This document shows, piece after piece, positions 465 through 19,343 of a stretch of 23,384 nt of DNA. The translations under genes and the position numbers were made by a program. Position 1 is the stretch's first letter. The number at the start of each line of letters is the position of its first letter. The stretch is from NCBI GenBank assembly GCA_013416795.1, contig RQSC01000003.1:272433-295816 (forward strand), given 5' to 3'. Source of the DNA: Prasinococcaceae sp. CCMP 1430. Its lineage: Eukaryota > Prasinodermophyta > Palmophyllophyceae > Prasinococcales > Prasinococcaceae. The notes beneath the pieces were generated by a model. The model did not search any database and was not told the DNA's origin. It saw nothing but the letters and a program-made list of their open reading frames with translations.

Positions 465-3400
465 GTGCGCACACAAAAATGTCAGTTTGAAATTGCCGCG
501 CGCAGGTTTTGGCGCATGGGCGCCGCGTTTGATGATCGGCATGCAACACCCGCTGATCGGCGCGTCGGTGCGCGCGCGCGCGCGCACGGGGGGCCGGGGC
601 CACACAGCGCGCGCGCCCGGACGCTGCTCGCGGCGGCGGCGGCGCTCGCGGCGGCGGGCGGGGTGGGCGCGGCGGACACGAAGCCGCAGCCGCAGCTCTG
701 CGTGGGCACCAAGCCGGGGAAGTGCGACGTCATAGAGAACAACGTGCCCGCTGCGATGTATGCCCCGCCGAAGAAGGTGCGGAGCCCGCGCAGGCGAAAA
801 ATCCAACACCCATTTCCTTCCCGCGCGGAGAGCAGTGCGACTTGCCCCCCTCCCCGCTCCGCGCGCGCTCCGCCGCCACGCGCGCGGGGCAGTCGCTCGT
901 CGCGCGTGCCACACGCCAGCGAGCTCGGTGGGAGGGCCGCCAAGGTCGGCGTAGTGCGCCGTCGGTGCTCGGCAGATGAACAATGCAGCCACGACCCACG
1001 GCTCACCGCCTCTTGATGCTGGCGCTGTGTTGACCGCGGGCTGACACGGATCGGCTGCCCGCTGCTGGCGCGCCGCGCGCCCGCGCCAACGCAGGAGGAC
1101 CCTGACGAGGGGCCGGCGAATCACAAGGTGTACCCCGAGGGCAAGGACTCGGTCACGCTGTACGTCTCGGCCAAGGAAAACGAGGCCAAGAAGGCGGTGC
1201 TCATGGCGCTGGGCACCGACAAGACGCTGGACCCCAAGGTGACGGCCAACTGGACCGGCGCGATCGCCCCGGGCGACACCGGGCTGGCAACCGTCACCTT
1301 TAACTGCAAGGAGGGCAACGCGGACGCCACGCGCGTCATGCTCGTCCTCGCTGACCGGCCCTCGGGGGTCGCCGCACGCTTTGCGATGTACAAGAAGTGC
1401 GCGGGTGTCCAGACGTCGCAGGACACCGTCAAGGCCATCGGAGTGGACGTCGCCACCAAGGCCGGCCTGGGCCCTGCGACGGGCGAGAGGCACAGGGCCA
1501 TCAGCACGCCCGACGTGGTCGAGAACGGCAGCCCCACCGCTGCGTACGTCATGGGCACCGACGCCAAGAAGGACGGCCTCAAACCTGTTGCGGCTGACGT
1601 GGGCTTCACCACCTTCTTCGTCGCCCTGAGCAGCGAGGCGCGCGAGAACGGCGACAAGATCGAACTTGGCCCGATGTCAGTGATCGCCGAGGCCTCGACC
1701 GCCCGCCCCGTGGTCAGCGGCCCACTCGCCGAGGGGGGGTCGCTCGCCAAGGACTCGCCAGCGTCACTCCCGCTGACCGTCACCTACAACTGCCGCCGCA
1801 CGGGCAAGACGCCCGTCAGCGTGCGCATTCCCGTGACGAGCCCGAAGGGCTCCATCACCTTCTCGTTCATGAAGGAGTGCGCCGTCGACGACACGAACAA
1901 GACCGCCATCAAGCGCGCCGTGCGCGCCAAGGCGAGCGTGCCCGGTCTGACGGTCCAGACGTCCAACACCTACGACCCGTTCACCATGGTGGAGAACGGC
2001 TTCACCGTGCCGTCGTTCACCGAGTCGGCGGGCGGCGACCCCGGGGCACCGGGGCGCAACATGATCAGCGCTGGCCGCAAGGCGTTCTCCTTCGCGGCCT
2101 TCATGTCGGGCGAGAACACCGAAGCCGTGGCCGTCGATGCCCCCATCGTCTTCGTGGAGGACGCCGAGGTGGCGTCCGCGCGCATCGACGAGGACATCAC
2201 CCAAGTCACCGCCGAAAAGACCGAGATGAAGCTCAAGTTCCGCTGCTTCAAGACGGGCTCGACCAAGGTGTCTGTGACCATCCCGCTCAACCCGCCCACC
2301 GGCGAGGTCAAGTTCACCATCGTCAAGGTGTGCGACCCCGACCAGTCGCTGATCGAAGAGAACCGCGCCGCGGAGAATGCCGACGCGGGGGCCAAGCCGA
2401 CGATGGCGCTGGACATCGCCACGAGCGCCAAGGGAGACCCCGTTATCGTGCGCAACGGCAACGTGCAGGATGACTTCGTGGCGCGCAAGCTGGCGACCCG
2501 CTACGCGCCGCCGGTGGACGACGTCCTGAAGGCCACGCGCGCTCCTGCGCTCAAGCTGAGCGAGGGCTGCCTCGGCTGCCTGCCCGCGACCGACTCGCTG
2601 GGCATGACGGCCGCGACGGTGCAGTCCAAGCTGGTGAAGTGCAACGTCACCGCGGCGTGCTCCTTCGAGGAGTACAACGCCGCGCGCAAGGCGTTCCGCA
2701 AGGTGGTCAGCGGCGCCTACGGCGACGCCGCCGGCCCGGCGGTGATCGCCCCGGGCGCCTTCTCGATGGATGCGTTCCTGCGTGCGAGCAGCGGCGCCCT
2801 GCAGATCGGCAACGCCGAGGTGGTGTCCTTCGACGAGAAGGTGTGCGTCCCCAAGCTGGTCGGCCCCGGCGCGCTTGCCAGCACGCTCAACCCCGACGGC
2901 AGCAACAAGGCCAAGCGCCTCACGGTGACCTTCAACTGCGTGGGCTACGGCGGCACCGCTCTGGTCATGGTGACCGTGCCCGTGTACGGTCGCAAGAGCG
3001 GAACCGTGAGCTTCTCGGTGCTCAAGCAGTGCGCGGCCGTCAACGCCACCGAGTTCGGCGGCGAGGAGAGTGACAACGCGGAGATGGCCAACGAGCTCGA
3101 GAACGTCATCGCGCACGCCGGCGCGGGCCTCCACGTGGGGCGCGCGGCCTCGGGCGATGGCGCAAAGGACGTGGTCGACAATGGTCTGGTGCTGCCCGAG
3201 TTCCTGCCCACCAGCAGCGTCGAGGACCGCGATGCGGGTGGCTACCAGGTCACCGAGGACAAGAACAGCTTCACGTTCTACCTCAGCAGCGCCGAGGGGC
3301 CCGACGCCGAGGCCATCTCGGTGGGCATCCCGCAGGTGATCTCCTTCAACCCGCGCATCGCCAAGACCACCGTGAGCGAGACGAGCGACCTGCACCGCAG

Positions 3401-4943
3401 CCAGGCGTCGCGCCGCAAGTTCCAGCTCAACGAGCCGCTGGAGATGACGGTGAATTTCGACTGCCTGTCCGAAGGCATCGCGGTCATCGCCGTCGCCGTG
3501 CCGCTGGGTCCCCGCGGCGGCGGGATCCACTTCGAGTTCACCAAGGCCTGCCCGGCGGACGAGGGCTTCAAGCCCTTCACGGGCGAGGTCATCAAGGGGC
3601 TGGCGGTCGGCACCGCCGAGGGCGAGGCGGACGTCATCAAGGACGGCCAGACGGCGCGCCTGTGGACGCGCTACAAGAAGTCGGTCGGCCCAGGCGGTCG
3701 CAAGATGGTGGACGCCGGCACGCAGACGGTGGACTTCTACCTGAAGTACGATGGCGACAAGCCCATGAACTTCGGCGCCCCGCTCGTGGTCGCGCACAAG
3801 CCCACGTGCAACCCCAGGATCGAGGGCGCGGCCGCGGAGGGCGGCGCGCTCACCAAGTCGACCACAAAGCTCAGCATTCGCTTCAACTGCGTGTGGGACG
3901 GCCAGACCGCGGTGACGGTGTTTGTGCCGCTGCCAGGGCACAAGGACAACGGCCACGTCGTCTTCACCATGACCAAGCGCTGCACCACTATGGCGAGCGA
4001 CGTCAAGGGTTCCGACTTTGAGATTCCCCTCGACGAGCTCAGGCTCGTGGACGCCGACGGCGACGGCGTGGTCGGGCCGTTGCACGAGGACTGGATGCCC
4101 TGGAACGCCGACGCCGACTACGGGGACTACTACGGAGCCTACCGCGGCTACTACGCCGCGTACGACAACTACTACGCGTACGACTACGCCCCCTGGACCA
4201 ATGACTGGCAGCCAGACGAGTGGGCCGACAAGAAGAGCGACGAGTACTGGTGGTACGGCGATCAGACCTCCTACTATGGCTCGTACGACTCGTACAACGA
4301 GGGCGATATGATCGACCCTTGGAGCTACGAGCTCGAAGGCTACGGCGACGAGTACGAGGATATGGGCGACGCGCTGGTTGACGAGATCGAGGCACGCGGC
4401 TGGGACAACACCAACGCACTCAGCGTTGGCACGCATGTCGGCAGCATGGACATCGTCAAGGACGGCGTGCCGATGCCGCGCTTCAAGCTCTGTGAGCCAA
4501 CGCCGGGCCAACCGTGCGATCTCATGTCGCTGATGGGCAAGGACGCGACCTCGTTCGTCGTCACCGCCAGCTCGGGCTCCGAAATCCTGCGCCGCCCGCA
4601 GGCATTTGCCAAATACCCGCGCAGCGTGGTGGCTGAGATTACGAACGCGGACGCGATCGACGGCAAGGTGGTCACCCCCGAGGAGCCCGTCGAGGTGCAC
4701 GTCTCGTTCACATGCCTCAAGCAGGGCGTCACCTCGCCCGTGCTCATTACACTGCCGTATGGCCCGTTCCACGTGGACTTCGCGCTGGTTAAGGTGTGCG
4801 GCAAGCGCTACTCCGCCGCGACCGTCGCAATTGAGGCCACGACGGTGTTCGTGGGCATCGGCATCGTGGCGTCGATGCTACTCAGCTTCCTGGCCGGCAG
4901 CAAGCTCAAGAAGCTCAGGGACGGCCGCGACCTCAACGCTTAG
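465..4943 (+). CDS. Large single-pass surface protein with seven Cys-bounded repeat modules and a Tyr-rich insert (unknown family)
   Basis: I do not recognise this family. Exons 465..776 and 1095..4943 (both phase 0) give 1386 residues. Residues 53-70 are an Ala/Leu-rich, signal-peptide-like segment ending GVGAA before DTK. Seven modules each hold a Cys pair 28-31 residues apart, at 175/206, 337/366, 488/517, 719/750, 894/923, 1036/1067 and 1311/1339. The pattern is roughly [TR]F.C..G.T.V.V..P......V.F...K.C, suggesting a disulfide-closed beta hairpin. Linkers repeat a D[VI]..NG motif followed by an F.FYLSS-like strand. Residues 1110-1196 are Tyr/Trp/Asp-rich. A hydrophobic span at about 1353-1375 is followed by a short basic tail (SKLKKLRDGR), so a type I membrane topology is inferred: extracellular modules, small cytosolic tail. 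The intron is supported because the exon join rebuilds one copy of the linker pattern. Start uncertain: ATGs at 465 and 516, or an upstream exon. Role unknown; a wall, scale or adhesion protein is possible. Confidence 0.8.
777..1094 (+). other. Intron of the repeat-module surface protein gene
   Basis: The 318-nt interval begins GTGCGG after AAGAAG and ends CAACGCAG. A CTGAC branch-site-like motif lies at 1041-1045, about 50 nt before the acceptor. Both flanking exons are in phase 0, and removing the interval restores the linker motif found between the other modules. The exact acceptor is inferred. Confidence 0.75.
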
Positions 4944-5207: not shown

Positions 5208-8200
5208 TCACACGGGGGCCAGGGCGCCCCAACGCGCGCTGCTGGCCGTTGCTTGCCCATTTTGGATGAGCGGTGCGTCCTCGCGCTCCCCGAACGCCGA
5301 TACGGACGAGTCTGACCCATGCTCATCATCGAGGAGCTCGTCCGTCAGTACGGCGTCAGCCAGCGCGGATCCGTCGACCCTGTGCATGGCGTCCGGGCCG
5401 CTCCTCACGCTCGCGAGAACCTTCGGAGGCCTATACCAGCGGAGTGCGAGGCTGGAGCACACGACACTCACGCTACTGCACGCCATTGCAGCCCCGGCGA
5501 GCATGGGCGGGAGACGCAAGCGCCAGCAGGGATACAGCACGCCCGCCGCGATAGGAATCATGAAGACGTTGTAACCCATGGCCCAGACGTAGTTGATGCG
5601 GATGCGCTTGAAGGTGGTGCGCGACAGGTCGATGGCAGTGAGCACGTCGCTCAGCGCGTCACGCATGAGCACAAAGCTGGCGGCCTCCATGGCGATGTCG
5701 GCGCCCGCCCCAATGGCCACGCCGATGTCCGCGGCCGCCAAAGCTGGCGCGTCGTTGACGCCATCGCCGACCATCGCCACCACGTGCCCTTTGGCCTTGA
5801 GATCCGCCACGATGCCGGCTTTACCTCCAGGCAGCACCTCAGCGCGAACGTTCGACGGGTCGATACCCGCCGCGTACGCTACCGCCTCCGCCGTCGCCCG
5901 GTTGTCCCCTGTGATCATGTGGACCTCGATGCCAAGCTTCTCCAGCCCGCTGACAACCGCCGACGCATCCGGCTTGATCGGGTCGGCCATGCCAAATGCG
6001 GCCACGAACACGCCATTGCAGGCGGCCACGATGGGCGTGCGTGCAAAACGCGCACACTCCGACACAAACTGCTGGGCGCGCTCCATGTTGACCCCCTCGA
6101 GCTGCAGGAAAGCCGGGCTGCCCACGAGCATGGTCGTGCCATCCACGTCGCACTTGACGCCACGACCAGGAACAGCCTCGAAGTTCTCCACGCCAAGTTT
6201 GGCCATGGACCGGCCGGCCACCTCTCTGCGGCAGAAGTTCACGATGGCGCTCGCCAGCGGGTGCTCGGAGCTCCCCTCGGCCGCGCCCACCAGGGCAAGC
6301 ACGCGTTCGCGCGTGAGGCTGGGGTCGTGCGCGAGCATGGCGTGCTCTTCGAAGACCTCGACGCTGGGCCGGCCGCGCGTGAGGGTGCCCGTCTTGTCGA
6401 AGGTGATCGCCGTGACGCGGTGAGCCATCTCGAGCGCCTCGCCACCCTTGATAAGGATGCCGTGGGTCGCGCCCACACCTGTGCCCACCATCACGGCGGT
6501 CGGTGTGGCGAGGCCCAGCGCGCAGGGGCACGCGATCACCACCACGGAAATGGCGAACAACAACGAAAACAGGAAACTGTCTGTGCCCTTGGGACGCCAG
6601 TCGTCCGGGTACAGCCCCTCCACGCCCGCGAGCATCCACACAGAGAAGGTAATTAATGACAGGCTGACCACCACAGGCACGAAGATCGAGCTCACAACGT
6701 CGGCGAAAGCCTGCACAGGCGCTTTGCTCAGCTGTGCTCGCTCCACTAGTCGCACGATCTGCGACAGGACGGCGTCCGCACCGACGCGCGACGCGCGCAC
6801 CCTCAGCGCGCCGTGGCCATTCAACGTGCCGCCCGTCACCTCCGAGCCAACGCCCTTGGCCACGGGCATTGACTCGCCGGTGAGCATGGACTCGTCGACG
6901 TGTGATTGACCGTGGATGACGACGCCGTCGCAGGGCACCCGCCCCCCGGGTCCCACGCGCAGGACGTCGTTGGCCTGCACCAGTGCGGCGTCAATCTCCT
7001 TCTCAGACAACACACTGCCGTCCTTGTCGAGCTCGAGCAGTGTGGCCAGATCGGGCGTCAGCTGCAACAGCTTGCGAATGGCGTCAGACGTGCGGCCCTT
7101 GGCGAGCGCCTCGAGGTACTTGCCCAGCAGGATGAACGTGATTAGCATCGCACTGGTCTCGAAGAAGTCCGTATCCTGGAAGGATGTGAAGGCGCCGTAG
7201 ATCACCGCAAACACCGAGTAGAAGTAGCTCGCGTTGGTACCGAGTGAGACGAGCACATCCATGTTGGCCGCGCGGTTGCGCAGCGCCTTGATGGCGCCCG
7301 TGTGGAAGCGCATTCCGACCCAAAACTGCACGGGCGTGGCGAAGATGAACATGAGCACGCTGTGCAATCTGAAGGGGCCGACGTGATCGTCGAGCAGGCG
7401 GTGCGCTGCAGGGATATGCGGACAGATGCTCGTGACGACGAACGCTGGCAGCGTGAACAGGCATGAGCGTCGAAAGAGCGTCCACCACATCTGCACCTCG
7501 CCCTTCGTGCGCTCGTCGGCCACGTCGCCTCCCATGCCCCCGGCAGCCGCCGGCCGCGCCTCGAAGCCCGCCTCCGCGACAGCAGCAACGATGTCGCGCA
7601 CACCCGTGAGGGCCGGGTCATACGCTACGTGCGCGGCGCCTGCTAGAAGGTTGACCTGCGCGTCTTCCACGCCGTGTACGCGCAGTAGCGCGCCCTCCAC
7701 CGCCGAGCTGCAGCTCGCGCAGCTCATCCCCTTGACCTCCAGGTCGACCATGCGCTCGCCGATCTCGATGGCCGCCTCTGCGCCGAAGCCGCAATTCAGG
7801 ATGGCCTCGCGCAGCGCCGCCGGCTCGATCGCGCGCGGATCGTAGCTTACCTCTGCCTGTTCTGTGGTGGCAGAGACGACCGCCCGCGTGACGCCGTCCA
7901 GCTTCCGCAGCGCGTTCTCCACGGACGCCGAGCATGCCGCGCAAGTCATTCCAGTGACTACAAAGCGCGCTTTCGCCTCCGCCCCGCCAGCGGCGGCGCC
8001 GTTGCAGCCTTCCGCTCGTGCTGGCCCGCCCCCCGCCCCCCGCTGCCCGCCAACGGATCCGTTGGCGCCTGCGACGCTCGCCTCGAAGCCCGCGTCCTGT
8101 ATGGCCTGCACGATCGCCCTCTGCACCTCCTCGGTCGCCGGCTCGCCCTCCAGCAGCGTCGCGACTGCGTCACCGCTCACGGCCGACGCGGCTGCGCCGC

Positions 8201-8588
8201 CGACAGCCGGCGACGCGCCGAGAATCGCTCGCTCGCACGCAGCGCTGCACGCCGCACACGTCATCCCCCCCACGCGCAGCCTCACCTCCTCCACGGAGGC
8301 GCCCATCCCGGCCAGCCGAGCGGCGCTCGCGCCCTCCCTCCGCGCCCCCCGCTTCAGCGTGCGCACCCGCCGCGCCGCGCCGCGCCAGCACGGGGACTGG
8401 GGCATAGGTATCATCGTCTGGACGAGCGCGCTGCTGGTCATGTACACCGCGGTGTGGCCCGCCGCCGGCGGCGGCGCCGCCGCGCCGCGCTGCTGCGAAA
8501 AAACGCACCGCTTCCACCACCGGCGGGTGTTGGCGAGGAGGGATGGAAGGGGGGGCAAAGGGGCAGGCGCGCAGGGTATCATCATCAC
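5208..8588 (-). CDS. ATP7: Copper-transporting P1B-type ATPase with three HMA domains
   Basis: Pumps Cu(I) across a membrane using ATP. In the ATP7/CCC2/RAN1 group this loads copper into the secretory pathway for cuproenzymes and exports excess. Intronless, 1126 residues from the most upstream Met. Three heavy-metal domains carry CxxC: GMTCAAC at 108-114, GMTCAAC at 213-219 and GMSCASC at 287-293. Catalytic parts are all present: TGES 570-573, the CPC metal site in the membrane at 687-689, phosphorylation motif DKTGT with Asp731, HP at 776-777, TGDN 893-896 and GDGVND 941-946. The P1B-1 residues YN (about 1006-1007) and MxxSS (from Met1035) mark copper(I) specificity. Residues 1-94 are basic with one acidic residue; Mets at 50 (nt 8441) and 95 (nt 8306) are alternative starts. 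Three HMA domains favour a secretory-pathway pump over the one-HMA chloroplast PAA1 type. It converges with the gene on its left and diverges from Rab2. Confidence 0.93.
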   Translation of the reverse strand: MMMIPCAPAPLPPLPSLLANTRRWWKRCVFSQQRGAAAPPPAAGHTAVYMTSSALVQTMIPMPQSPCWRGAARRVRTLKRGARREGASAARLAGMGASVEEVRLRVGGMTCAACSAACERAILGASPAVGGAAASAVSGDAVATLLEGEPATEEVQRAIVQAIQDAGFEASVAGANGSVGGQRGAGGGPARAEGCNGAAAGGAEAKARFVVTGMTCAACSASVENALRKLDGVTRAVVSATTEQAEVSYDPRAIEPAALREAILNCGFGAEAAIEIGERMVDLEVKGMSCASCSSAVEGALLRVHGVEDAQVNLLAGAAHVAYDPALTGVRDIVAAVAEAGFEARPAAAGGMGGDVADERTKGEVQMWWTLFRRSCLFTLPAFVVTSICPHIPAAHRLLDDHVGPFRLHSVLMFIFATPVQFWVGMRFHTGAIKALRNRAANMDVLVSLGTNASYFYSVFAVIYGAFTSFQDTDFFETSAMLITFILLGKYLEALAKGRTSDAIRKLLQLTPDLATLLELDKDGSVLSEKEIDAALVQANDVLRVGPGGRVPCDGVVIHGQSHVDESMLTGESMPVAKGVGSEVTGGTLNGHGALRVRASRVGADAVLSQIVRLVERAQLSKAPVQAFADVVSSIFVPVVVSLSLITFSVWMLAGVEGLYPDDWRPKGTDSFLFSLLFAISVVVIACPCALGLATPTAVMVGTGVGATHGILIKGGEALEMAHRVTAITFDKTGTLTRGRPSVEVFEEHAMLAHDPSLTRERVLALVGAAEGSSEHPLASAIVNFCRREVAGRSMAKLGVENFEAVPGRGVKCDVDGTTMLVGSPAFLQLEGVNMERAQQFVSECARFARTPIVAACNGVFVAAFGMADPIKPDASAVVSGLEKLGIEVHMITGDNRATAEAVAYAAGIDPSNVRAEVLPGGKAGIVADLKAKGHVVAMVGDGVNDAPALAAADIGVAIGAGADIAMEAASFVLMRDALSDVLTAIDLSRTTFKRIRINYVWAMGYNVFMIPIAAGVLYPCWRLRLPPMLAGAAMACSSVSVVCSSLALRWYRPPKVLASVRSGPDAMHRVDGSALADAVLTDELLDDEHGSDSSVSAFGEREDAPLIQNGQATASSARWGALAPV

Positions 8589-13743: not shown

Positions 13744-14649
13744 CTACTGCTGCTGCTGGCCCTCCATGACGAGCTCCGCGTTCTGCAGCAGCTGCGCGAG
13801 CCAGCGGCGCGTGGTTGCATCGTCCTTGAGGCAAGCCGTGAAGGAAGGGTCGCGCAGCAGCTCCGGCAGGCACTGCCGCAACGCCTCACGCGCGCGAAGG
13901 TTATCGCTCAGGCGCAGGTAGCACCGGATGATGTGCTTGAGCAGGCGCACGCTCGGCTGTTCGGCCAGGCTCTGGACCATCGACCCGAGCACGGCTCCCA
14001 CAGCAAAGAAGCGCTCCGCCGTCGCACAGATGTAGTTGAGGCCCACCTCATCCAGCAGGATCTTCTGGACGATAAAGGTTGCGACGGTCTTGCTCAGCTC
14101 GCTGCCGAGTTCCATGGTGCGCAGGCAGAGCGGAATGATTTCGGTGCTCAGCAGGAAGTTGATCACGTCGGTGTCGTCGACCTTGACGAGCGCGCCGATC
14201 ACTCCGAGGCTCGTCAGCCGCAGGTACTCAAAGGGACGCGTCTTGGACACGGTGTTCAGGAAGGGATAGAGGAAGAGCGGCACGTGCGCGTTGAGGAACA
14301 GCGAGCGCGTGTCCTGGTGCGACGCGACACACTGCAGGAGCGCGAGCGCGTTGCACACGCGGTTCGAAGCGTGCGCGGTGAGCGTCGGCGGGCTGAGCAG
14401 CGGGTAGATCGACACAATCTCTTGCAGCAGCGCCGCGATGGTTGCGCGGGAGTGCCACAGGATGGGCGCGAGGTCAGGAAATGCCTCTCGCTTCTTCGAC
14501 AGGTCCAGCAGCGCCGTCTCGCGTGTCTCGGGGTTCACGAGGTCCAGGACCAGCTGTGCGGGCTGCGCGTCCGCCCCGCCCCCCGCCGCTCCGCCGCCGC
14601 CGCCCCCGCTGTTGCTGCCCCCCTGCGGCATCGAGCTGGGCACCGCCAT
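13744..14649 (-). CDS. CNOT9: CNOT9/RCD1 subunit of the CCR4-NOT deadenylase complex
   Basis: 301 residues. CNOT9 is the armadillo-repeat subunit of CCR4-NOT, which shortens mRNA poly(A) tails; it binds the NOT1 scaffold and docks tryptophan motifs of partners such as GW182. Residues 36-292 align almost residue for residue with the family: [119 protein letters not shown] and REALRQCLP. The N-terminus (1-33) is a Gly-rich spacer and the C-terminus a short Gln run; both are low-complexity additions seen in many lineages. The start at 14649 is the nearest upstream Met. A Met at 14726 in another frame could supply a different N-terminus through a very short intron. It diverges from USP7. Confidence 0.96.
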
Positions 14650-14780
14650 GGGGCCTCTACCTGCGCCTTTGAGCGCTCTTCGCGCTCGCGTTTCTTCTGC
14701 AGGCGCAGAGCCTCCTCGTCGTTCATGGGGGCGGCCGCCTGGCCGCTCCCTCCTCCCTGGCTGCGATACCAGGCCTGCCA

Positions 14781-14812
14781 TGTGCGTGTGCGTGTGCGTG
14801 TGCGTGTACGTG
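14781..14812. repeat. TGTGCG hexanucleotide microsatellite
   Basis: Five units of TGTGCG, the last altered to TGTACG. Alternating purine-pyrimidine sequence of this kind can adopt Z-DNA. It lies 130 nt upstream of the CNOT9 start. Confidence 0.85.
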
Positions 14813-15100
14813 CCGCCACCCGCCCGCCGCCCGCCCGACGCGCGAATTAGGGCGTCGGCCCGAGGCGCGCGCGCTGTGGCCCTCGCGCGCTTTTTTTCTT
14901 TTTCGCCAAGGGGGGGGAAAAAAAACTTGTGCCCCAACGACGGGGAACGACGACCTCCAGACCCGCAGGTTCACGCGCCGAGTGGTGAATAGACCGGGTC
15001 ATCATGCGCGTGTGTAGTACTACCGGGTGTGTGCGCGGGGTGGTTGCGGTTTCGTCTGGGTGGAGGGCCGAATGACCCCGGTTCGGGCGCGGCCCCCTTC

Positions 15101-15541: not shown

Positions 15542-18500
15542 ATGGTGGACTCGCCGTACACGCCGGGCGCCCAAGGTGAGGCGCTGTCGCTGCTTTGCTG
15601 CGGCCGCGGCTGCGCGGAGGGCACACACACCGCCGCAAGCGCGTGTGCGCGCGAAAAAAGTGCATGCTCTTTGTCGTTGCGATCACTTGAAATCAGTCGC
15701 TTGCTCACCCCCCGCACACGCCCGGCGATGGCGGCGGCGGTAGGATGTGTGGGGAAGTGAGCACGCGAGACGTGCCGATCCGAGCTGGCTGGGCAGGCGC
15801 CGCACGCGCGTGCTTGCGGTGGTGGCAGCGGTGCGCCCTGGCGGCGAGTTTTTGGTCTTTTGTTCGTGCGAGGCACGATGCGGCTCGGCGAGCCCCTGGT
15901 GCGGTGAGATCTATCGCCTTGCGAGACGCCGTCGCGCCGTGGCTGACGCGTCTCTCGGCGCGTGCGCGTTTGTGCCACACGAAGTGCAAGCGCCGCCGGT
16001 GGCGACGGTGGTCCAGGAAGGCATCGATAGCGGTAATGACCAGGCGCCGGTGATTGCCACGACGACGGGCAAGGCGTCTTGCCTGGAGGGCAAGTACCAG
16101 TGGCGGATCACCAACCTGAGCCAATTGCCCGACAACAAGGTCACGAGCAAGACGTTTATAATCGGCGACTTCAAGTGGAAGCTGCTCGTGTTCCCGCGTG
16201 GGAACAACATGTCAAACGCGGACTTCATGTCGGTCTTTCTCGACGTGACCGACGCATTGGAGCTGCCCCACACCTGGTCGCGCGGCGCCAAGTTCACGCT
16301 GAGGCTCGTCAACCAGCGGAACCCCGAGCAGTCGCTCGTGAAGGATACGAGCCACAACTTCACGCGGCTGGAGCGCGACTGGGGGTTCGCGCAGTTCGTG
16401 CGCCTGGATGAGGTGCGAGACCCTGCGAAGGGCTTCATGGTGAACGACTCAATCGTGCTGGAATGCGACGTGGGCATGTTCAAGGAGATCACGTGGTGGA
16501 ACTACGACAGCAAGAAGGAAACAGGCTACGTGGGGCTGAAGAATCAAGGCGCCACATGCTACATGAACAGCCTGCTGCAGTTCCTCTTCCACATCCCTTT
16601 CTTCCGCCAGGCCGTGTACGGCCTACCGACCACGGAGGCGGACGAGCCCGCGAAGAGCATCCCCCTTGCGATGCAGATCCTGTTCTACAAGCTACAATTT
16701 GACAACAAGCCGGTGGGTACCAAGGAGCTGACCAAGTCGTTCGGCTGGGACTCATTCGAGGCCTTCCAGCAGCACGACGTACAGGAGCTCAACCGCGTGC
16801 TGTGCGAGAACCTCGAGGAGAAAATGAAGAAGACAGACGTCGAGGGAACCATCCAAAAGCTCTTCGAGGGCCACATGGTCAACTACATTGAGTGTGTGAA
16901 TGTCGACTTCAAGAGCACGCGCAAGGAAGAGTTTCTGGACCTGCAGCTGCAGGTGAAGGATTGCAAGGACGTGTACGAGTCGTTCGACAAGTACTGCGAG
17001 GTTGAAACGCTGGACGGGGACAACTTGTACGAAGCCGAGGGCCACGGGAAGCAGCCCGCGCGCAAGGGCGTGCTCTTCCAAGACTTTCCGCCTGTGCTGC
17101 AGCTGCAGCTCAAGCGCTTCGAGTACGACATGATGCGCGACATGATGGTGAAGATCAACGACCGCTACGAGTTTCCGCTCGTGCTTGACCTCGGCAAGAA
17201 TGGCAAGTACATGACATCCGACGCAGACCTTTCGAAGCCCGCTCGGTATCTGTTGCACTCGGTCCTCGTCCACTCCGGGGGTGTTCACGGTGGCCACTAC
17301 TACTCCTTTGTGCGTCCCGACTGCGGCGTCGAAGGGCTTGTGACGTCGAACGCGGGCGAATCGGGGCAGTGGTACAAGTTCGACGACGACCGAGTGACCA
17401 AGGAGGACGAACACGAAGCGACGGAGTTGCAGTTTGGTGGCGACGGCACGGCGCCCGCGCCGCCCCCGACTCAGGGCTTCAACCCGCCCCTTTTCTCCAA
17501 GCTGAGCAAGTACTCGAATGCCTACATGCTCGTGTACGTGCGTGAGTGCGACGTCAAGAGCGTGCTGTGCCCTGTGACCAAGCAGGACATTGCCCAGCAC
17601 CTGCACGAGCGCGTGGAGCGAGAGGCGGCGGAGAAGGCGCGGCGGAAGAAGGAGCTGGAAGAGGCGCACATGTACACGCAGGTCAAGGTAGCCAGGGACG
17701 AGGACATGCGCGCACAGATCGGGAAGACGGAGAACATCCTCTTCGATCTGATAGACTATGAGAAAATCCCGGCGCGGCGCGTGCTCAACACCACGACGCT
17801 CGCCCAGCTCAAGGAGGAGCTCGCGCAGGAATATGGCGTGCCGGCGACGGGCCTGAGGTTTTGGCTGTGGGCCAAGCGCGTGAACAAGAGCTGCCGCCCA
17901 TCCAGATCTCTGGCGGACACGGAGCTGCAGACGCCCATGGACGAGCTCCACAAGGCGCTTGGCATGAAGGGGGGGGCGCTTGAGTTACTCGTCGAGACGC
18001 CGCAGCCACCGCTAACGTCGCTCCCGGTCGTTGCCAAGGGCGACATGCTGCTCTTCTTCAAGTTTTTCGACCCCGTCACCGCGACCATCAGCTTCGCAGG
18101 CTACATGTACTGCAACAACGGCGCGCAGCTCATGGACTACTGCACGAGGATGCGTGCCATGGTCGGCCTACCGGCCAATGAGGAGCTCCTAGCGTTCGAG
18201 GAGATCAAGTATGCTCCGGACCTGATGTGCGAGCCAGTGGACATGCGGCTGCAGCTCAGTGCTGCGCAGCTCGAGGACGGCGACATTATCGTCTTCCAGT
18301 CCTGGCGCGCCGGTAGGGGCCAGCCCTTTGAAACCGCGCTTAGCTTCCTCGAGTACCGCCTCCAGAGGCAGACGGTGGTCTTCCGCCCACTCGACAAGCC
18401 CGTGGATGACGACGCAGCCATCGAGGTGGAGCTCAGTCGCGAGTCTAACTACGACGACGTTACCGCGGCGCTCGGTGAGAAGCTGGGGGTGGACGACCCG

Positions 18501-19343
18501 ACGCACTTGCGGCTGACGGCGCACAATGTACGTATGAATGGCCCGCGGCCCGGCCCCCTTCGCTTCCGCCAGATCGTGGCCGTCGGCAACATGGTAGGTA
18601 CACCCACCATCGATGAGCTGAAGGCAGCGTCGTACGAGCCGGTCACGCTGTACTACGAGCGGCTGTCGATGCCACTCCACGAGCTGGAGACGCTCAAGAC
18701 TCTCAAGGTTGATTTGTACAGCGCCGACTGCAAGTATGTGTCGACGCACACGATTCACGTGCCGCCGAGCGCGCCCGTGGCCGCGGCGCTGGCGGAGGTG
18801 GCCAAAGCGGCATCGCGTCCACCCGATGCGCCCCCACTTCGCCTGGTGCATGTGCACCATTCCAAGATCTTCAACGCTTTTGAGGCCGGCCAAGAGCTGT
18901 CCCATGTCGACTCGAACGCATACCTGCGCGCCGAGGAAGTGCCGGAGGATGATGCGGGGGCGCCGTCGCTGCTCTACGTTTACCATGTTGAGGAAGGCTC
19001 CTTGGAACAACCTGCGCACACCACACACTTCGGTGAACCCATGCTCGTCGGGTTGCATGATGGGGAGACGGTTGCGAGCGTGAAGGCCCGCATCCAGAGG
19101 CGCCTCAGTGTCAGCGATGAGGACTTCGCCAAGTGGAAGTTCCATGGCTTCTGCGGCGGGCAGGGGTCGCCTCTGCGGGACGGGGACGTGGTTGCCGACA
19201 AGATCCACGCCATGAACCGCAACCCGACGTCGATGTACGATACATACCTGGGGGTAGAGCACGCCAACACCGGGCCGCGTCGCCCGGTGGGGGCGAGCCG
19301 GCCAGCGACGGGCTTCGAACGCTCAATCAAGATCTCAGGCTGA
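15542..19343 (+). CDS. USP7: USP7/UBP12-type ubiquitin carboxyl-terminal hydrolase
   Basis: A cysteine protease removing ubiquitin from substrates in nucleus and cytosol; plant UBP12/13, animal USP7 and fungal Ubp15 are the same family. Best model: exons 15542..15575 and 15985..19343, 1130 residues (UBP12 about 1116). MATH/TRAF-like domain about 47-177 (YQWRITNLSQ through VLECDV). USP core about 195-532: Cys box NQGATCYMNSLLQ with catalytic Cys203 (codon 16557), His box HSGGVHGGHYYSF with His449 (codon 17295) and WYKFDDDRVTK carrying the acidic partner. The QQHDVQELNRVLCENLE switch region is conserved. The remaining 600 residues match the ubiquitin-like HUBL array, ending YLGVEHANTG...FERSIKISG as in UBP12. 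The first exon (MVDSPYTPGAQ) and the acceptor are inferred; a coding exon further upstream is possible. A small insertion before WYKF (GVEGLVTSNAGES) is local. Very secure family, moderate N-terminus. Confidence 0.95.
15576..15984 (+). other. Probable intron near the 5' end of USP7
   Basis: About 409 nt, starting GTGAGG after CCAAG. CTGAC lies at 15943-15947, and the first AG downstream is at 15983-15984; a second acceptor at 15990 keeps the same frame. The alternative of reading straight through from the ATG at 15747 gives an N-terminus unlike any USP7. Boundaries are moderately sure. Confidence 0.55.

Follow-up and report, generated by a model that had tools for sequence, protein, structure and literature searches.

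In animal proteins such as WIF-1, RYK/Derailed/Drl-2 and Shifted, the WIF domain is known as the part that binds Wnt or Hedgehog. One survey recorded WIF-1 in bilaterians only and in neither sponges nor diploblasts (PMC7565927), and in zebrafish Ryk the conserved Cys 155 and Cys 188 are disulfide-linked and keep the cleaved chains together (PMC3776778). At the level of titles and abstracts, no paper was found that joined the WIF domain with choanoflagellates, and none relevant for algae or protists. Here, the analysis of a 23,384-nucleotide stretch of genomic DNA (the window) reveals a gene encoding seven tandem modules, whose predicted fold is a beta-sandwich nearest to the WIF domain, an assignment with moderate to good support from the structural models. 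As far as these models hold, the new element is a set of tandem WIF-like modules named by no sequence database that we searched, and its main value is that of a lead, i.e., a WIF-type module, in tandem, outside animals.

Judging from its light-harvesting (LHC) proteins, the host is a Chl a/b alga: the 24.5-Mb genome (145 contigs) gave at least 22 LHC matches, and the best PDB matches of the LHC protein tested were Chl a/b proteins. The LHC protein of locus L005 had its top score against the long multi-domain LHCI chains of PDB 9vfj; these scores exceed those of single-domain plant and green-algal LHC, partly perhaps from several domains adding up.

The original prediction had taken positions 465-4943 as a protein-coding stretch. 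The plus frame proved to be the coding one, since the GC content of exon 2 at codon positions 1/2/3 is 0.61/0.47/0.92 and an antisense ORF of 1002 residues mirrors these values, as is expected of a non-coding reverse frame. The limits of the gene had to be revised (Table 1). The GTG at 465 belongs to the 5' region, 516 is the first in-frame ATG past the last upstream stop, and the frame noted earlier is interrupted by a stop codon at about 1014, ahead of exon 2, so that a phase-0 GT..AG intron is the best reading of the segment between the two exons.

Table 1. Features of the locus and its neighbours in window coordinates; residue numbers refer to the encoded protein.
Feature	Position	Strand	Basis or remark
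Gene	516..4943	+	two exons, single intron; product of 1369 residues
Exon 1	516..776	+	start Met, signal-like segment and beginning of module 1; ORF and intron reading, phase-0 GT..AG junction
Putative phase-0 intron, 318 bp	777..1094	+	GT at 777 and AG at 1093-1094; contains an in-frame stop, removal restores the frame; from sequence
Exon 2	1095..4943	+	remainder of module 1, all of modules 2-7, membrane anchor and stop codon; open frame, GC3 0.92
Module 1 (residues 59-191, split by intron; Cys 158/189)	690..1406	+	leave-one-out 34.7 bits
Module 2 (199-351; Cys 320/349)	1428..1886	+	leave-one-out 53.7 bits
Module 3 (369-502; Cys 471/500)	1938..2339	+	leave-one-out 64.8 bits; AlphaFold2 model
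Module 4 (523-735; Cys 702/733), with insert	2400..3038	+	leave-one-out 51.6 bits
Insert inside module 4, about 92 residues, four Cys	2478..2753	+	module alignment; DNA match to contig C2
Module 5 (762-908; Cys 877/906)	3117..3557	+	leave-one-out 57.2 bits
Module 6 (920-1052; Cys 1019/1050)	3591..3989	+	leave-one-out 77.1 bits; AlphaFold2 model
Acidic Tyr/Asp/Trp-rich linker, modules 6-7	4020..4403	+	composition; DADGDG stretch at its opening
Module 7 (1193-1324; Cys 1294/1322), membrane-proximal	4410..4805	+	leave-one-out 43.4 bits
C-terminal membrane segment (residues about 1335-1356)	4836..4901	+	Kyte-Doolittle up to 2.14 over 19 residues
Cytoplasmic tail, short, basic, 13 residues, KLKKLRDGRDLNA	4902..4940	+	translation
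P-type ATPase with heavy-metal-binding domains (neighbour)	5208-8588	-	
Rcd1/CNOT9-like protein (neighbour)	13744-14937	-	
USP7-like ubiquitin protease with MATH domain (neighbour)	15747-19343	+	

The seven modules, each of about 130 residues, are homologous and can be aligned. When each was scored by a profile built from the remaining six, they reached 34.7-77.1 bits against 13.3 bits for the best of 1000 shuffles, which upholds the earlier description of seven cysteine-bounded modules with a Cys pair 28-31 residues apart (31, 29, 29, 31, 29, 31 and 28 in modules 1 to 7). The order within a module is a first strand L-x-V, D[VI]..NG, a mid strand and a closing ...F-x-C...V-x-V...F...K-x-C, and four columns (Cys, Phe, Lys and Cys) are invariant in all seven copies. 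The D[VI]..NG motif, previously assigned to the linkers, turned out to sit within each module, about 20 residues past its start, with the variants DVIENN in module 1, TMVENG in module 3 and VIVRNG in module 4. Periods of 142-275 residues had been explained by independent enlargement of the linkers; measured from start to start they are 140, 170, 154, 239, 158 and 273, most linkers are short, and two enlargements dominate, namely the insert, which lies inside module 4, and the linker of about 140 residues between modules 6 and 7. Modules 2 and 5 have smaller extra loops.

Searched against the 24.5-Mb genome, a consensus module matched at these seven places and nowhere else, and the gene is single-copy at this search depth. 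No named sequence family was matched in Pfam, NCBIfam or PDB sequences, and no strong match of the modules to a named Pfam profile came to light. Relatives were likewise not found among phages, plasmids, viral (IMG/VR) contigs or GTDB contigs, which says little on other algae because algal nuclear DNA is all but absent from these collections; the module alignment is too divergent to serve degenerate-pattern searches.

The fold was predicted with AlphaFold2 from the target module with the other six as alignment, i.e., from the seven paralogous modules only. Module 6 gave a beta-sandwich with pLDDT 82.2 and pTM 0.76 and module 3, modelled as a replication, a beta-sandwich with pLDDT 72.9 and pTM 0.69, the two models being not fully independent since both use one seven-sequence alignment. 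In the Foldseek search of the PDB with module 6, the two best hits were both human WIF-1 (E 1.6e-4 and 2.4e-4), and the six WIF-domain entries seen there all lay within the top eight, while with module 3 WIF-1 came first as the sole match below 1e-3. VIA-align placed module 6 on fly Drl-2 with Z 11.1 (3.1 A, 119 aligned) and on WIF-1 with Z 10.7 (3.4 A, 127 aligned); two other domains came within 1 of WIF in Z, with less coverage, one an SPD-2 domain of CEP192 (Z 10.5, 2.1 A, 101 aligned) and one from VesC (Z 10.3, 2.8 A, 101 aligned), and most other sandwich folds covered about 87-112 residues. For module 3, ranks 1-6 were all six WIF entries (Z 9.3-10.8, 3.1-3.5 A, 119-124 of 133 residues aligned), and the best non-WIF chain (Z 9.2, 2.7 A, 102 aligned) was within 1-2 of them. 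The two predicted sandwiches align with the WIF domain over nearly its entire length (119-129 of 133 residues, Z 9.2-11.1). A viral-protein structure library returned no match below 1e-3. The original statement that no named domain fits is thus right for sequence families and needs amending at the fold level, where both modelled modules match WIF best in the PDB.

The sequences of WIF-1 and RYK used for comparison were verified with PDB and Pfam. Each of three MAFFT modes placed the two cysteines of the modules on the pair conserved in WIF-1, RYK and Drl-2 and the D[VI]..NG turn opposite the WIF V-x-[NE]-[GD]; the N-terminal part of module 4 was out of register because of its insert. The position and spacing of the cysteines agree with WIF in seven of seven modules (28-31 residues here vs 33 in zebrafish Ryk), and by their positions they form a putative disulfide. 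The K-x-C ending and, close to the module start, a V-x-[NE]-G turn are also WIF-like. Pfam WIF (PF02019) had no match at E up to 10 in the protein, the modules, the consensus or the genome, with human RYK (157.8 bits) and WIF-1 (115.2 bits) as positive controls and a membership threshold of 25 bits. Identity in the structural alignments is 11-14%, and of the Phe-x-Trp strand common to WIF-1, RYK and Drl-2 the Trp is present at that place in no module, most modules having F or Y in that strand. The module profile compared with WIF by hhalign was not significant (E 0.14-0.54). The module HMM gave WIF-1 4.3 bits, a score reached by 11 of 2000 shuffles and also by natural E. coli decoy segments, for which reason it is not claimed as homology. 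As sequence comparison gave no proof of WIF homology, we call the modules WIF-like in fold.

That the long frame merely reflects the high G+C content of the DNA, with repeats at the DNA level only, might be suspected from the long antisense ORFs occurring all through the G+C-rich window. The codon-position GC of exon 2, the conservation of the pattern in the protein, where Cys, Phe and Lys do not vary among the seven modules, and the good confidence with which the alignment of paralogous modules folds have in practice already refuted this exceedingly improbable explanation. Much more weight attaches to the question of descent. Sandwiches of such type arise often, and the modules could be a separate lineage-specific Ig-like or PapD/ASH-like family, their likeness to WIF being convergence within a common fold. 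PapD-like/ASH/MSP and other Ig-like sandwiches (CEP192, HYDIN, FimC) share the general arrangement with Z 8-10.5, several PapD/ASH-like domains reach Z 9-10.5 with module 6, and the absence of sequence-level support for WIF speaks for convergence. Yet the coverage of these domains is limited to about 93-102 of 133 residues, and WIF comes first in both models, with all six WIF entries above every other chain and about 15-25 more residues covered in module 3. The PapD-like/ASH/MSP and related sandwiches are moreover mostly intracellular or periplasmic and, to our knowledge, are without a WIF-type Cys pair at that position, whereas the Cys pair of the modules coincides with that of WIF. We regard convergence as a serious possibility, if one short of an even chance. 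The modules may instead be genuinely homologous to the animal WIF domain, which would then have existed outside animals without a Wnt or Hedgehog partner and have been multiplied in this alga to a seven-unit surface stalk; we put forward this reading tentatively.

Compared with the known WIF proteins, which have one copy of the domain, the algal protein has seven in tandem and lacks an EGF or pseudokinase domain, although it resembles RYK in being a single-pass membrane protein with a probably extracellular setting of the modules. It also differs in its host, in which neither the Wnt (PF00110) nor the Hedgehog signal (PF01085) profile had a match, in a search without positive control as the control genomes gave none either. 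Tandem surface sandwich modules are likewise known from the Ig-like domains of the S-layer protein SbsC (4uid, Z 8.4-8.5), which is bacterial, covers 87-89 residues and has no sequence relation to the modules that we found.

As to the whole protein, we lean towards a type I membrane protein of a Chl a/b alga, in which seven WIF-like, disulfide-pinned sandwich modules would form a passive multivalent binding stalk. The flanks had been described earlier as a signal-like segment and a membrane anchor, and both stand: an Ala/Leu-rich signal-like stretch occupies residues 36-52 (h-region LLAAAAALAAAGGVGAA, then DTK), the exact start being uncertain because its n-region is unusually long, and the hydrophobic anchor lies near the C-terminus. 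The earlier reading as a surface protein of seven cysteine-bounded modules with such flanks is supported, the surface location itself being probable. Large repeated ectodomains of the disulfide type are typical of surface proteins, and no KKxx or KDEL-type retrieval signal is present at the extreme C-terminus of the sequence; both points argue against a protein acting inside the secretory pathway, e.g., as a Golgi cargo, scale-assembly or chaperone protein, which we consider unlikely. Such a role would be in keeping with the short basic tail without a signalling domain and with the habit of some prasinophyte algae of building scales in the Golgi, as described for Bathycoccus (PMC3491373).

Returning to the surface stalk, each module probably has one pinning disulfide that runs from the end of an inner strand (F-x-C) to the end of the last strand (K-x-C), and the ectodomain may project as a semi-rigid, multivalent stalk. 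Since the 13-residue tail lacks signalling domains, the protein most likely has a passive role, and its architecture, a single anchor carrying seven sandwich modules of the disulfide type and neither an enzymatic nor a signalling part, suggests multivalent binding or anchoring. It could serve as an adhesin, a matrix anchor or a ligand-binding ectodomain, with polymers of the cell wall or of scales, other cells or secreted ligands as candidate partners. The flexible acidic Tyr/Trp-rich stretch before module 7 might give reach or a cross-linking site; 106 of the linker residues comprise 20 Y, 18 D and 9 W with a net charge of -24, a composition from which a cross-linking or adhesive function could be imagined. 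Ahead of this stretch, LVDADGDGVVG resembles a calcium-binding loop, and its DADGDG is recognised by no Pfam model.

A seven-fold WIF-like module in a Chl a/b alga would suggest either a non-Wnt role long before animals or two origins. The WIF-type domain shape may thus be older or more widespread than animals, common ancestry being unproven. The seven modules, as a family absent from Pfam so far, offer a sequence seed for searches of algal proteomes.

Within the insert of module 4, window positions 2504-2560 contain 57 bp identical, with sharp ends, to contig C2 at 217.7 kb (minus strand), where the partner is a Polyketide_cyc2/SRPBCC-like gene. A second locus on C2 was considered as a paralogue and rejected, as the match is a 57-bp DNA copy. 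The C2 gene is the likelier source, because a hand-joined reading that takes in the 57-bp stretch passes the PF10604 cut-off and the C2 ORF without it fails. Additional cysteines occur as close pairs in module 1 (62/70) and module 7 (1220/1228) and singly, at a roughly equivalent place, in module 4 (671) and module 6 (992); by their positions, these extra cysteines could pair between modules or chains.
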